Shown here: piece after piece, positions 48,674 through 53,819 of the stretch | Position numbering within the stretch: the first letter of the stretch is position 1 | How the letters are laid out: each line of letters starts with the position of its first letter | NCBI GenBank assembly: GCA_905182425.1 | Contig: CAJJBP010000008.1 | Span: 1-64,000, forward strand | DNA length: 64,000 nt | Origin: an uncultured Planktomarina sp. | Lineage (GTDB): Bacteria; Pseudomonadota; Alphaproteobacteria; Rhodobacterales; Rhodobacteraceae | Direction: 5' to 3' | Translations under genes and position numbers: made by a program | Notes under the pieces: generated by a model | Seen by the model: only the letters and a program-made list of their open reading frames with translations | Told to the model about the DNA's origin: nothing | The model's database searches: none

Positions 48674-48851
48674 TACCGGTGTTTGCGCCTGTTTCTCTGC
48701 TAGCGCAAGCTGCAAAACTGCTTGGTTAGTTGTGTGAAATCTGCTGTTTTTGGCCTTAACATAAAAACCTCTTTTGAATTTCTCCACGTGGGAACGGTTG
48801 CCCCTTTGGTTTTGCGCGGGTAAATGCAAGGCAACAGATAAGGAACGCATC

Positions 48852-50351
48852 ATGGCCAAACAAAAAAAAGCTCCGCGGCCCAGGGCTGTCCCACCAAGAG
48901 GCTTTCGCGATTATTTTGGCACTGATGTTTCAGAGCGGTCTAAAATGTTGCGTGAAATTGCCGATGTTTACCAATTGTATGGCTTTGAGCAGCTCGAAAG
49001 TAGCGCTATTGAAACTGTTGAGGCATTGGGAAAGTTTCTCCCTGATGTGGACCGTCCAAATGAGGGAGTTTTTGCTTGGCTGGAAGAGGAGGATTGGCTT
49101 GCTCTACGCTATGACCTGACTGCACCTTTAGCGCGCGTTTATGCGCAACACCGCAACGAGCTCCCAAATCCTTATCGGCGTTTTGCCATGGGGCCGGTCT
49201 GGCGCAATGAGAAGCCGGGCCCGGGACGCTTCAGGCAGTTCTATCAATGTGACGCGGATACTGTTGGCTCTGCTAGCATGGCCGCTGACGCAGAGATTTG
49301 CGCCATGTTATCTGATACACTCGAGCGGGTAGGTATTTCACGAGGAGATTATATCATCAGAGTGAACAATCGCAAAGTACTCAACGGCGTGATGGAAGTC
49401 GCTGGCGTGCTTGACCCGTTGGATCCTGACAGATTTACAAATGAACGCGGTATTGTTTTACGCGCAATTGATAAATTGGACCGCTTGGGGCTTGAAGGCG
49501 TACGGCAACTTTTGGGCGAAGGCCGCAAAGATGACAGCGGTGATTTCACAAAAGGCGCCGGGCTCGGGGCGGGGCAGGCTGAAATTGTGATGGGTTTCAT
49601 GCAAGCGCTGGGTGACACGACCGTGCGGACCTTGGATAATCTCCAGGCCTTGGTCGCGGGTTCCGGAGTGGGTGAAACTGGTGTTGATGAGCTAAGGCAA
49701 ATCTCTGATCTTGTGGTAGCGCAAGGCTATGAAACTGACCGTATTATGCTTGATCCATCCGTGGTGCGAGGTTTGGGTTATTACACTGGGCCCGTCTACG
49801 AAGCAGAGTTAACATTTAAAATTAAAGATGAAAAAGGTAGACTTCGGCAATTTGGTTCTGTCGCAGGTGGTGGGCGCTATGATGATTTGGTTAAACGCTT
49901 CACTGGTCAAGAAGTTCCGGCCACTGGTATTTCGATCGGGGTCGATCGCTTGCTTGCAGCACTACGGATGAAGGGCAGGGTTGGACAAACTGCCCCTGGC
50001 CCTGTCGTGATTACAGTTATGGATCGAGATAGAATGAGCGATTACCAATCTATGGCTGCTGAACTACGTGCTGCTGGCATCAGGGCAGAAGTGTATCTGG
50101 GTAATCCAAAAAACTTTGGTAACCAATTAAAGTACGCTGATAAACGTAAAAGCCCTATTGCAATTATTGAGGGGGATGTCGAAAAAGCGGCTGGTATAGT
50201 ACAAATTAAAGACCTTATTTTGGGTGCTGAATTAGCAAAAAAAGCAAGCTTGGAAGAGTGGAAAGCCCGACCAAGTCAGATTGAATCCCCACGGGCTGAG
50301 TTAATAGAGCAAGTGCGCAAAATGTTATTGGCCCAGGCTCTTTCTGAATGA
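48852..50351 (+). CDS. hisS: Histidyl-tRNA synthetase
   Basis: HisS charges tRNA-His. It is a class II synthetase of 499 residues, the long alphaproteobacterial form. Visible marks are [10 protein letters not shown], the motif 2 region [20 protein letters not shown], the histidine loops [15 protein letters not shown] and [12 protein letters not shown], motif 3 [15 protein letters not shown], and a C-terminal anticodon-binding domain. AAGGA precedes the ATG at 48852. It overlaps hisZ by four bases (ATGA). Confidence 0.96.
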
Positions 50352-51397
50352 CCTTGCTCCGCATTGAAACCGAACGTCTTTTAAAGTTTTTTCAAGCGGC
50401 TGGTGCTGTGCGCGTGGAAACTAACATTTTACAACAAGCAGATGTTTTGTTGGATCTATACGGTGAAGATATTCGTGGGAGAGCTTTTGTCACTTCTGAT
50501 CCACTGCATGGCGAGCAAATGTTGCGTCCTGACTTTACTGTTCCTATAGTTCAACGCCATATGGCTGAAAGCGCAGAGCCCGCACGCTATACTTACGCAG
50601 GCAAAGTTTTTAGGCGCCAAGAGACTGACACAGACCGCTCAAGTGAAATTGATCAAGTTGGTTATGAAGTATTTGACCGTGGCCCTGCTGAAAAGATCGA
50701 AGCTGAAGTTTTTGATATATTCTACAGAGTTTTAGCCCCGTTTGGGCTCACGGCTTCAACAGGTGACGTTGGTCTACTTTTGGCCGCTATTGAGGGACTT
50801 ACGACTTCGCAAGCCCGTAAAGAAGCCTTACGCCGTCACATCTGGCGGCCGCGTAGGTTTGGTGCATTGATCGAGCGGTTTTCGAATATTGTTGGAGTAA
50901 AGGATCTAGGACTAGGAGGTCAGCAGATTGGCCTGCGCTGCGCTGGCGATATTAAGAGCAGACTTGCTCAATTAGCACAAGAAGCAGAGGCTCCACCAAT
51001 TCCCAGGTCCGAAGTTAATGCGATCAAAGATTTGCTCGCCGTAAAGAATACTTTTCCAAATGCGTTGGAAGATCTTGAAAATTTAGCGCCAAGATTGCCG
51101 TCAATAGAATCTGCTATTGTGAATATGCGTAAACGTGCTTCTGCACTTAGGTATGCGGGTATTGATATTTCTAAAATCGGTTTTGAAGCTGCTTATGGTC
51201 TCACTGCGATGGAATATTACGATGGTTTTGTCTTTGGTTTTTATTCTCCTGACCAATTCGATTGGCCGGCGGTAGCTTCAGGAGGTCGCTATGATGCTTT
51301 GACTCGAGTTTTAGGGCAAGGACGCTCAGTTCCAGCGGTGGGGGGTATTGTTCGACCGCATTATACGCAGGGACTGTCGCAAGGAGCTTTAGAATGA
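50348..51397 (+). CDS. hisZ: ATP phosphoribosyltransferase regulatory subunit
   Basis: HisZ is a HisRS paralogue without charging activity that activates the short HisG in histidine synthesis. It has 349 residues with [16 protein letters not shown], the motif 2-like [20 protein letters not shown], and [15 protein letters not shown]. Coupling by four-base overlaps to hisS and hisG is the standard alphaproteobacterial order. Confidence 0.94.
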
Positions 51398-52074
51398 TCA
51401 AGTTAGGTGTGCCGGCTAAGGGCCGGCTAATGCAAAATACATTTGATTGGTTCGCAAATCGCAATGTCTTGTTGTCCAAATCTGGGTCTGACCGAGAATA
51501 TATCGGTAAAGTTTCTGGAGTTACGGGAGTTGAGCTAATCCTTCTTTCTGCTGGCGAGATCCCTGGGGAGCTGGCGGCTGGGCGTATTGATCTTGGTGTA
51601 ACGGGTACGGACTTAGTTCATGAAAAATTGGCTAATTGGTCAAAAAAAATCACCCCTGTTATCGAAATGGGGTTTGGCTTTGCTAATTTGATGATTGCAG
51701 TACCGGCTTGTTGGCGTGATGTTACGTGCCTCCATGATTTGGATGCAGTTGCTGCACGCTTTCGGGCCCAGCAAGGCTTTCGCTTGAGAGTAGCGACTAA
51801 GTACCATCGATTGGTTCGCCAGTTCATGACTGAACATGGGGTCGCTGATTATCAATTGGTGGACAGTCAGGGTGCGACAGAGGGAGCAGTCAAGAACGAA
51901 ACTGCAGAAGCAATAGCAGATATTACCAGCTCAGGTGCCACTATAGAAGCCAACCATCTACGAATTTTGGAAGATGGTCTTGTGCTAAAATCGCAAGCAA
52001 CATTATGGCAGTCTCGATCAGCACAAGGCAATTGCTCTGAGTTGATCAAGAAAATAATAACTACACAAATTTAA
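51394..52074 (+). CDS. hisG: ATP phosphoribosyltransferase, short form
   Basis: HisG joins ATP and PRPP, the first and feedback-controlled step of histidine synthesis. The 226-residue short form lacks the C-terminal regulatory domain and so needs HisZ, encoded just upstream. Marks are KLGVPAKGRLMQNTFDWF, the RIDLGVTGTDLVHE region and GATEGAVKNETAEAIADITS. Its stop overlaps the stop of the convergent trans-sulfuration gene. Confidence 0.95.
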   Translation: MIKLGVPAKGRLMQNTFDWFANRNVLLSKSGSDREYIGKVSGVTGVELILLSAGEIPGELAAGRIDLGVTGTDLVHEKLANWSKKITPVIEMGFGFANLMIAVPACWRDVTCLHDLDAVAARFRAQQGFRLRVATKYHRLVRQFMTEHGVADYQLVDSQGATEGAVKNETAEAIADITSSGATIEANHLRILEDGLVLKSQATLWQSRSAQGNCSELIKKIITTQI

Positions 52075-53282
52075 GCTAATGCTACCGCCAAATCGCGAAT
52101 TAAATCTGTTGGTTCTTCTAATCCAACTGACATGCGAAAAACTCCGTCTCCTGCGAACGACCGATAGCTTTTGAGTTGTGTGCCGCTGAGCCTGAAAGAC
52201 GTTTCCATGAGACTCTCGGTTTCCATCCAGAAAATTAAACTACGATGGTGGCCGAGTGAAACCGCATAGTGAATGATGTCCATCCGATCGATCATTTGCT
52301 GTGCAATTTTTCGCCCAGTTTTAGCATCACCAACTTGGAAGCTAATCATTCCAGACATATTTAGCATTTGCTTTTTGGCCAATTCATATTGTGGGTGACT
52401 TGGTAGGCCTGGGTAAATTACTTTAGTCACCTGTGGCTGAACTTGGAGCCATTCAGCCACTGCTTGTGCTCCAGATTGGTGCGCTTGCATCCGCAGCGGA
52501 AGCAGTGACAAGCCGCGTGCGACCAACCACGCGTTGAAGGGAGACATCACGCCACCGTGGTGAATTGCGCTTTCGCCACGAATTTTAGAAATCAAAAGTT
52601 TTGAGCCAGCGACTGCGCCTCCTACTGCATCGCCATGACCCCCCACATATTTTGTCACTGAGTGCATAATTAAATCTACGCCCAATAACGCAGAATTTTG
52701 GCCCATCGGTGATGCGAAAGTTGCGTCGCAACTAACTAAGGCGCTGGCGGTATGTGCCATCTTGCAGACCTGCGCAAGATCAGTCAGGCGGCCAATTGGA
52801 TTGACGGGGCTTTCTGTATGGACCAATTTTGTGTTCGGGCGGAACGCTGCTTGGAGAGTTCCTAAATCAGACATATCCACTAGTGTCACATCAATGCCGA
52901 AGCGGGGGAGGGTGTCTCGTGCCAGTTCCGCGACACCCGCATAGCTAACGTCCGATACGATGACGTGATCGCCAGCTGACAAAAAAGTTAGAAAGATAGC
53001 AGTTGTAGCCGCCATGCCTGATGCAAGGCAAATACAATCCTCAACTCCTTCGAGTTTAGCAAGCTTTTGCTCAAGCATATTCACCGTTGGATTGCCCCAG
53101 CGGGCGTAAAGATACTTTCCGTCATCTTGTAAGTCGTGGGCGGAAAACCCTGCAACTTGATCTGTCACAAATGTTGACGACATGTGCAATGCTGGGGCAG
53201 ACGCACCTGTAGTTGGATCTGGGACTTCACCTGAGTGAATTGCGGTGGTCATTAAGCCATATTTAGAGTTTGTGCGGTTCAT
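52071..53282 (-). CDS. PLP-dependent trans-sulfuration enzyme (cystathionine synthase/lyase family)
   Basis: This 403-residue Cys/Met metabolism PLP enzyme has RWGNPTVNMLEQKLAKLEG, CLASGMAATTAIFLTFLSAG, and the PLP lysine in HSVTKYVGGHGDAVGGAV. The family includes cystathionine gamma-synthase, O-succinyl- or O-acetylhomoserine sulfhydrylase and methionine gamma-lyase; which one cannot be told from sequence alone. A perfect pseudoknot (53298-53348) ends just before its AAGGAA binding site, so translation is probably ligand-controlled, as for methionine genes under S-adenosylmethionine. The stop overlaps that of hisG. Confidence 0.88.
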   Translation of the reverse strand: MNRTNSKYGLMTTAIHSGEVPDPTTGASAPALHMSSTFVTDQVAGFSAHDLQDDGKYLYARWGNPTVNMLEQKLAKLEGVEDCICLASGMAATTAIFLTFLSAGDHVIVSDVSYAGVAELARDTLPRFGIDVTLVDMSDLGTLQAAFRPNTKLVHTESPVNPIGRLTDLAQVCKMAHTASALVSCDATFASPMGQNSALLGVDLIMHSVTKYVGGHGDAVGGAVAGSKLLISKIRGESAIHHGGVMSPFNAWLVARGLSLLPLRMQAHQSGAQAVAEWLQVQPQVTKVIYPGLPSHPQYELAKKQMLNMSGMISFQVGDAKTGRKIAQQMIDRMDIIHYAVSLGHHRSLIFWMETESLMETSFRLSGTQLKSYRSFAGDGVFRMSVGLEEPTDLIRDLAVALA

Positions 53283-53297
53283 GCTTGCGTTCCTTGT

Positions 53298-53348
53298 GCT
53301 GTTGCATTTTTTTGAGACCGCAGCGCTGCAACAGCCTATATGGTCTCA
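53298..53348 (-). ncRNA. H-type pseudoknot leader, candidate riboswitch
   Basis: Read on the reverse strand 5' to 3': TGAGACC (helix 1), ATATAG, GCTGTTGCA (helix 2), GCGCTGC, GGTCTCA (helix 1), AAAAAA, TGCAACAGC (helix 2), then ACAAGGAACGCAAGC and the ATG. Helix 1 is 7 perfect base pairs (53342-53348 with 53313-53319) and helix 2 is 9 perfect base pairs (53327-53335 with 53298-53306). They interleave, which makes a true pseudoknot of 51 bases. The third loop is six A, as in compact pseudoknot riboswitches. The last helix strand ends three bases before the Shine-Dalgarno sequence, so folding should block the ribosome. It precedes a sulfur amino acid gene, so S-adenosylmethionine is a natural ligand guess, but the sequence does not show the conserved bases of SAM-II or SAM/SAH RNAs as I know them. 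Confidence 0.75.
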
Positions 53349-53354
53349 GGCCGA

Positions 53355-53383
53355 ACGTCTCAGAAAACTGGGAAAGCTGTCAA
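53355..53383 (-). promoter_or_regulatory. Promoter before the pseudoknot
   Basis: TTGACA reads on the reverse strand at 53378-53383, just past the end of the DUF1489 gene. At 17 bases spacing, the -10 position reads AGACGT, a poor match. If the promoter is used, transcription would start right at the first base of the pseudoknot, which fits a leader of about 65 bases. Confidence 0.4.
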
Positions 53384-53387
53384 GCGC

Positions 53388-53819
53388 TTATAGGATGCCA
53401 ATATCGGCTAATGCAATTTGCAAAGCATGAGGTAAAATTTCCTCGTGTTGTCTGGTTTCACCCAAATCTGGTGGAGCGGCTGCGGGTTCGAGATAACGCC
53501 AGCCTTGAAAGGCACGCCTAGGCGTGGCGGCAACGCGGATTAATTTGGGATCTGATACGATTGCACAACGGCGAATACCATCTGGCCCGATAACTTCGTC
53601 AAGACGCAAAACGGTCTGGCGGCAAAGAAGGGTGCCTTTGATAATCCAATAGATTGAACCTCCATTAGTCAGCTCCGCTTCGCGCTTTGGCCACATACGA
53701 GTTATGTGACGCGGAAAGCCGTCGGGTGTTTGAGCCATTGGGGATGCTTGCCATTCGGTGAGACCTTCAACAGATTTGGTACCAACGCTCAATTTTACTA
53801 GATTTATGGTATGTGGCAA
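53388..53819 (-). CDS. DUF1489 family protein
   Basis: This 143-residue conserved alphaproteobacterial protein of unknown function is recognised by NLVKLSVGTKSVEGLTEWQ, HITRMWPKREAEL, GGSIYWIIKGTLLCRQ and RRAFQGWRYLEPAAAPPD. It has no signal peptide or membrane segment, so it is cytoplasmic. It lies upstream of the trans-sulfuration gene on the same strand, but a promoter and leader come between, so cotranscription is not required. Confidence 0.88.
   Translation of the reverse strand: MPHTINLVKLSVGTKSVEGLTEWQASPMAQTPDGFPRHITRMWPKREAELTNGGSIYWIIKGTLLCRQTVLRLDEVIGPDGIRRCAIVSDPKLIRVAATPRRAFQGWRYLEPAAAPPDLGETRQHEEILPHALQIALADIGIL

Follow-up and report, generated by a model that had tools for sequence, protein, structure and literature searches.

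We propose, tentatively and with a probability of about 0.45, that the gene for a Cys/Met metabolism PLP enzyme (PF01053) in Planktomarina-like roseobacters is preceded by a genus-restricted 5' leader that would regulate its translation through a hairpin that is conserved and a pseudoknot that is labile. The leader lies in the window, by which we mean the whole 64,000-nt stretch of uncultured Planktomarina DNA that was analysed, and was compared within a data set of seven distinct leaders (that of the window and L002 to L007) on which two collections agree. These seven form four clades, namely window/L002, L003/L004, L005/L007 and L006.

On the minus strand of the window, from 53348 to 53298, four strands are perfectly complementary and interleave as a pseudoknot of 7 + 9 bp (Table 1). 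A sequence-only reading that preceded this analysis had described both helices as free of mismatches, with loops of 6, 7 and 6 bases of which the last is all A; exact complementarity and the loop positions bear this out. It had also placed the end of the knot three bases before AAGGAA, which is off by one, the gap being of two bases (53297-53296). Two interleaved complementary strand pairs with loops of 6, 7 and 6 define the window sequence as an H-type arrangement, and we take these loop lengths to be sterically possible for such a pseudoknot. Across the relatives, the distance from the P1 3' strand to the Shine-Dalgarno (SD) sequence ranges from 15 to 19 nt. The ATG of the gene is at 53282.

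Table 1. Leader elements and neighbouring genes in the window, in the order of transcription
Feature	Coordinates	Strand	Remarks
DUF1489 gene (PF07370)	53388..53819	-	upstream; stop codon 3 nt before CTTGACA box
-35-like box CTTGACA	53378..53384	-	30 nt 5' of first G of P1; identical in 7/7 leaders
S1 (P1) 5' strand TGAGACC	53342..53348	-	GAGGTC in L005, L006 and L007, with compensating partner strand
Loop 1, ATATAG, 6 nt	53336..53341	-	read from sequence
S2 (P2) 5' strand GCTGTTGCA	53327..53335	-	same loop part joins SD region in best loop-tail duplex of L005-L007
Loop 2, GCGCTGC, 7 nt	53320..53326	-	22 nt in total between P1 strands in 7/7
S1 (P1) 3' strand GGTCTCA	53313..53319	-	pairs with TGAGACC
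Loop 3, AAAAAA, 6 nt	53307..53312	-	length differs among relatives
S2 (P2) 3' strand TGCAACAGC	53298..53306	-	identical in L002; other five relatives differ at 1-4 of 9 positions, L003 gap uncounted
Shine-Dalgarno AAGGAA	53290..53295	-	same in L002; AAGGAG in L003, L005, L006, L007; AGGGAG in L004
Cys/Met metabolism PLP enzyme gene (PF01053), 403 aa	52071..53282	-	family match

The family match of the downstream gene agrees with its earlier placement in methionine/cysteine metabolism. The best models for the enzyme are methionine gamma-lyase and O-succinylhomoserine sulfhydrylase; because it scores below the cut-off of all 25 NCBIfam families shown of the 64 matched, its reaction is not settled. 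Its nearest named relative, with 97% protein identity, belongs to a Planktomarina MAG. The DUF1489 gene ends 105 nt before the PF01053 start codon, on the same strand; beyond the 3' end of the PF01053 gene, on the opposite strand, genes resembling hisG, hisZ and hisS were recognised by eye (window 48774-53819).

Close relatives of the gene (E up to 1e-150) occur in only 7 of the 20 genus genomes, counting that of the window, so that gene and leader look gained or lost as a unit. A covariance model (R1) containing P1 only was built from the seven leaders. R1 finds all seven among the 20 genus genomes (E 2.5e-13 or better), matches which arise by construction because the model was built from them, and the informative part lies in the negatives. 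The next match (E 0.039) is in G015, which has its PF01053 gene elsewhere, and the best match in the 13 genus genomes without the gene (E 0.146) is at chance level. Among 394 genomes of the family, representing 393 genera and searched with stricter filters under which weak matches are lost, R1 finds the window's own genome only, plus a partial match at E 0.095. A homologue search returned 160 stretches, 141 of them encoding relatives of the enzyme, and 80 of these were kept. Six of the 80 bear the leader (L002-L007); the other 74 gave no convincing R1 match (32 of them, plus L089 and L090, with a best E of 1.9, and 42 with a best E of 1.4). Viral contigs provided no further homologues. The covariance search, a check proposed by the sequence-only reading, located the element at a single gene of a single genus.

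Conservation was expressed as identity averaged over the 18 non-sister leader pairs. It is 0.69 in the knot segment, 0.41 in the 29-nt spacer next to it and 0.83 in the SD stretch, and the CTTGACA box shows no difference in any pair. Within the knot segment, values are 0.71 for the loops, 0.70 for the S2 strands and 0.64 for the S1 strands, and both the 30-nt distance from box to P1 and the 22-nt P1 loop are invariant in the seven leaders. Over the same 18 pairs, the fourfold sites of the PF01053 gene are near saturation (0.28-0.50 identical). This contrast was considered as strong evidence for selection on the leader and dropped, since a control on other genes showed ordinary upstream conservation. 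The 60 nt before the start codon are 0.72 identical to each of G017 and G007 in free-gap alignment, an ordinary value among 60-nt upstream stretches of other genes, being exceeded by 6 of 17 (G017) and 5 of 17 (G007). For each relative, the control took the 17 stretches whose coding overlap did not exceed 0.25, this gene excluded, out of 46 and 53 shared starts listed; the limit was set because the list includes spurious open frames and mostly coding stretches. Free-gap alignment inflates identity for all of them, and one G007 row at 0.10 is an evident misalignment. The coding flag (0.8) of the PF01053 gene in the comparison with G017 is wrong, the open frame running upstream of the true start. 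Because 6/17 and 5/17 stretches exceed this leader, conserved upstream stretches are common here, and we therefore rely on the contrast between the knot segment and the leader's own spacer. Rate variation among leader columns is absent (gamma shape 31.5), and column rates this flat are unlike those expected for a fixed ligand pocket.

The knot had been called very unlikely by chance. This stands for its place before a start codon and falls for the window as a whole, because 60 replicates of order-1 random sequence, with loops 1 and 2 jointly up to 24 nt and loop 3 up to 14 nt, put the expectation for a perfect 7+9 bp knot at 0.15 per strand per 64 kb, or about 0.3 for the two strands of the window. 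The window contains one such knot on the minus strand and none on the plus strand. When knots were scored by stacking energies over 80-base stretches, G-U pairs being allowed, the window leader reached -32.8, equalled by 1 of 3985 random stretches of the window. L002 ranks at 0.4%, L006 at 1.1% with a different knot, L007 at 3.7% and L005 at 6.9%; L003 and L004 have no knot scoring above random stretches.

Pseudoknot-free folding of the 61-nt window leader gives -18.3 kcal/mol with P1 included (z -1.87); a 92-nt version, again including P1, equals its shuffles in stability (z -0.10). In the window, L002 and L005 leaders, the minimum-energy fold contains P1; in L006 only the centroid does, and in L007 neither. 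L005, L006 and L007 do not fold more stably than shuffled sequence (z +0.23, -0.36 and +0.06), and L003 and L004 fold less stably than their own shuffles (z +1.4 and +1.5). RNAalifold, the scope of which is limited to pseudoknot-free structures, chose P1 together with a 3-bp inner hairpin (GCU/AGC).

The aligned leaders lend the P1 hairpin modest support from covariation, in five of the seven species. Two adjacent pairs are double-changed between window/L002 and L005-L007, one from A-U to G-C and the other from C-G to U-A, the latter being present also in L003 and L004. As they are adjacent and fit one branch, the two compensatory pairs may represent a single episode. Cells of P1 are paired in 96.7% of cases in the five P1-bearing leaders and in 83.3% over all seven; L007 retains 5 of 6 pairs, L003 and L004 3 of 6 each. 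In a structure-free simulation (the leader's own tree, HKY, 200,000 runs starting from the window sequence), the P1 pairing of the five leaders, which were selected post hoc after the data had been seen, has P = 0.02, or 0.001 jointly with the two double changes; over all seven leaders, P = 0.12. Out of 500 shuffles of the 3' letters, 43 reach the observed pairing percentage, 144 the number of double-changed pairs and 11 the number of double-changed cells, so that the structure does not stand out strongly against them. L003 (2933-2992) and L004 (2932-2992) keep the box spacing and the loop length and have lost P1.

Pairs of P2 are kept at 9/9 in the window, 8/9 in L002, 7/9 in L005, 6/9 in L006, 7/9 in L007, 6/8 in L003 and 7/9 in L004, with a single compensatory change, from U-A to C-G in L006. 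Such conservation is no more than the neutral simulation yields: P is 0.13 for seven taxa when the gapped L003 cell is left out, 0.16 when it counts against the helix, and 0.31 for five taxa. The sequence-only reading had proposed a search for compensating changes in both helices, and named a lack of covariation or conservation of either as refuting it. On that rule P1, with two double-changed pairs and retention in 5/7 leaders, is supported, and P2, with conservation at the neutral level, is not.

The best duplex between loop and tail was also chosen for each leader separately, without reference to the window register. With both segments shuffled, it reaches -15.9 kcal/mol in the window (P 0.013) and -15.9 kcal/mol in L007 (P 0.008); P is 0.025 for L002 (0.13 when the tail alone is shuffled), 0.081 for L006, 0.17 for L005, 0.62 for L003 and 0.90 for L004. 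The optima of L005, L006 and L007 extend into the SD region. The best uninterrupted knot combines P1 with GCTTTTTT/AAAGGAGC in L007, with a partner helix other than the window's in L006, and with TTGCA/TGCAG in L005; this last helix speaks for P2 because it is the window register in short form. A six-pair helix between loop and SD is complete in L005 and L007, has 5/6 pairs in L006, L003 and L004 and 4/6 in the window and L002, these being raw counts of possible pairs. Pairing between loop and tail near the SD thus recurs in five leaders in a register that is not conserved, and the perfect pseudoknot as first described is private to the window's branch.

Such a distribution could also be produced by an ordinary leader with one conserved hairpin, in which the perfect pseudoknot arose by accident in the lineage of the window and its sister and has no regulatory role. 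We consider this rather unlikely. The neutral behaviour of P2, the lack of a register common to all relatives, the loss of P1 in 2/7 leaders, the ordinary upstream conservation among genes and the roughly 0.3 perfect knots expected per window all speak for it, but it leaves unexplained that the knot lies directly before the SD, that its score is in the top 1 of 3985 and that the knot segment contrasts with the spacer (0.69 vs 0.41).

The spacing of the leader raises another alternative at the DNA level. A consensus promoter scan recognised no promoter and no -10 box near CTTGACA, where we nevertheless infer a promoter. The box is perfect in the seven leaders and the next 29 nt are poorly kept (0.41), as may befit an activator-dependent or unusual promoter. 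The P1 strands could then be inverted-repeat half-sites at a fixed promoter phase, bound by a repressor or activator, with RNA structure irrelevant. The fixed 30-nt and 22-nt spacings (7/7), the joint change of the arms (GAGACC to GAGGTC) and a perfect -35-like box without a recognised -10, as in activator-dependent promoters, would suit such an operator, as would the proximity of an AsnC/Lrp-like gene, seen by eye from its translation, to a Halomonas relative of the gene (L047). We nonetheless hold it to be unlikely: half-sites that differ in sequence yet remain complementary to each other are more typical of RNA, conservation is no lower in the loops than in the arms (0.71 vs 0.64), and L003 and L004 have a disrupted dyad at the same spacing.

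Comparison with known RNA families was made at two levels. Over the whole window, none of the 4227 Rfam families reached its gathering score. With E allowed up to 10, the matches of the seven leaders stayed at chance level, with no SAM family and neither RF01727 nor RF00521 among them, in agreement with the sequence-only reading, which saw none of the conserved bases of SAM-II, SAM-V or SAM/SAH RNAs. That reading had made novelty depend on the absence of a clear match to a known family, and nothing beyond chance level was found. The matches set aside were two miRNA families for the window leader, MAT2A_D and a flavivirus element for L007, both on the opposite strand, and three snoRNA families and the glutamine riboswitch for L002, these four with E values of 4.8 to 9.6 as chance gives; L003, L004, L005 and L006 had no match. 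The glutamine riboswitch match (RF01739, L002:2923-2999) is full-length and weak, with 11.5 bits for a gathering score of 35 and E 4.8, and is probably due to chance.

Both SAM-II and SAM/SAH riboswitches are present in the genus at other loci, SAM-II in 14 of the 20 genomes and SAM/SAH in 18 (17 over the cut-off); the window's own genome, at 84% completeness, yielded neither. By their coordinates, all 14 SAM-II matches directly precede a weaker PF01053 paralogue on the same strand, the match to the paralogue being partial in G013 and G018. In the genus leaders inspected, SAM/SAH precedes a gene which we take, by eye, to have a metK-like start. SAM-II (RF00521) resembles the present leader in being a pseudoknot upstream of a PF01053-type gene in the same genus, but it precedes the paralogue and not this gene, its model does not match the leader, and the loop GATTTGTTACCGG of its inspected genus members is absent here.

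SAM/SAH (RF01727) is likewise found in the same genus and also has a P1 hairpin the loop of which is able to pair with the SD strand. The leader differs from it in lacking both a model match and the conserved binding-site sequence, in its 22-nt P1 loop (14 nt by eye in the SAM/SAH leaders of the genus), and in its paired strand, which takes in the SD in SAM/SAH whereas that of the window lies before the SD. By eye, the sequence between the P1 strands matches the SAM/SAH binding site at 9/14 positions in L007 and 7/14 in L005; CCUGGC is absent from all seven leaders and the AACGGCUU run is retained in L007 only. In L007 (2459-2564), the loop AACGGCUUUUUUAGC shares 9 of 14 positions by eye with AACGGCUUCCUGGC of the genus SAM/SAH, and GCUUUUUU can pair with the SD. 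This likeness to the SAM/SAH core may be fortuitous or reflect shared ancestry. That the leader is a SAM/SAH or SAM-II riboswitch in strongly diverged form is very unlikely: the shared topology with a P1 loop able to pair with the SD, the 9/14 resemblance of L007 and its GCUUUUUU, and the Cys/Met enzyme family of the gene are set against the lack of any RF01727 or RF00521 match at E up to 10 in seven leaders and against a SAM/SAH binding region that PMC7367207 gives as more than 97% conserved, of which L007 alone has AACGGCUU and none has CCUGGC. The same source presents SAM/SAH as a translational H-type pseudoknot in which a loop pairs with the SD.

Two further classes share features with the leader. 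According to PMC6061858, SAM-V occurs in marine alphaproteobacteria and acts on translation as a compact H-type pseudoknot, in which an A-rich strand makes A-minor contacts and a short helix extends into the SD. The compact H-type topology is similar, but no SAM-family match was obtained in the seven leaders at E up to 10. The preQ1 riboswitches have a compact form with an A-rich tail. They are folded RNA pseudoknots controlling access to the ribosome binding site, according to PMC11625349 and PMC10622847. Both they and the leader are pseudoknots near the ribosome binding site; the leader differs in its gene context and has no Rfam match. No publication concerning this leader was found among the open-licence papers searched, as judged by titles and the openings of abstracts.

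Returning to the preferred reading of a translational regulatory leader, transcription would probably start at about the first base of P1, given the invariant 30-nt distance to the -35-like box. The transcript would fold as the P1 hairpin with its 22-nt loop, part of which would pair with the tail beside the SD in the window, in L002 and partly in L005, or with the SD itself in L007 and, more weakly, in L005 and L006. Either pairing would create an H-type pseudoknot that hinders ribosome loading, and the leader would therefore act as a translational damper. In the L003/L004 clade, the structure has been lost. What tips the balance could be a ligand, a protein, or only temperature or RNA decay. 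Riboswitch function is possible. We find it quite improbable that the leader represents a new, very small and lineage-restricted class of translational riboswitch, possibly sensing a methionine-cycle metabolite, in which the knot helix slid between species from the SD to just upstream of it.

Should the leader prove regulatory, this marine genus would have a third pseudoknot leader in its sulfur amino acid metabolism, and also a case of a translational knot that switches register while its supporting hairpin is kept. If not, a perfect-looking pseudoknot would come down to one conserved hairpin and a lineage accident. The enzyme may degrade or make methionine, which bears on the marine sulfur cycle.
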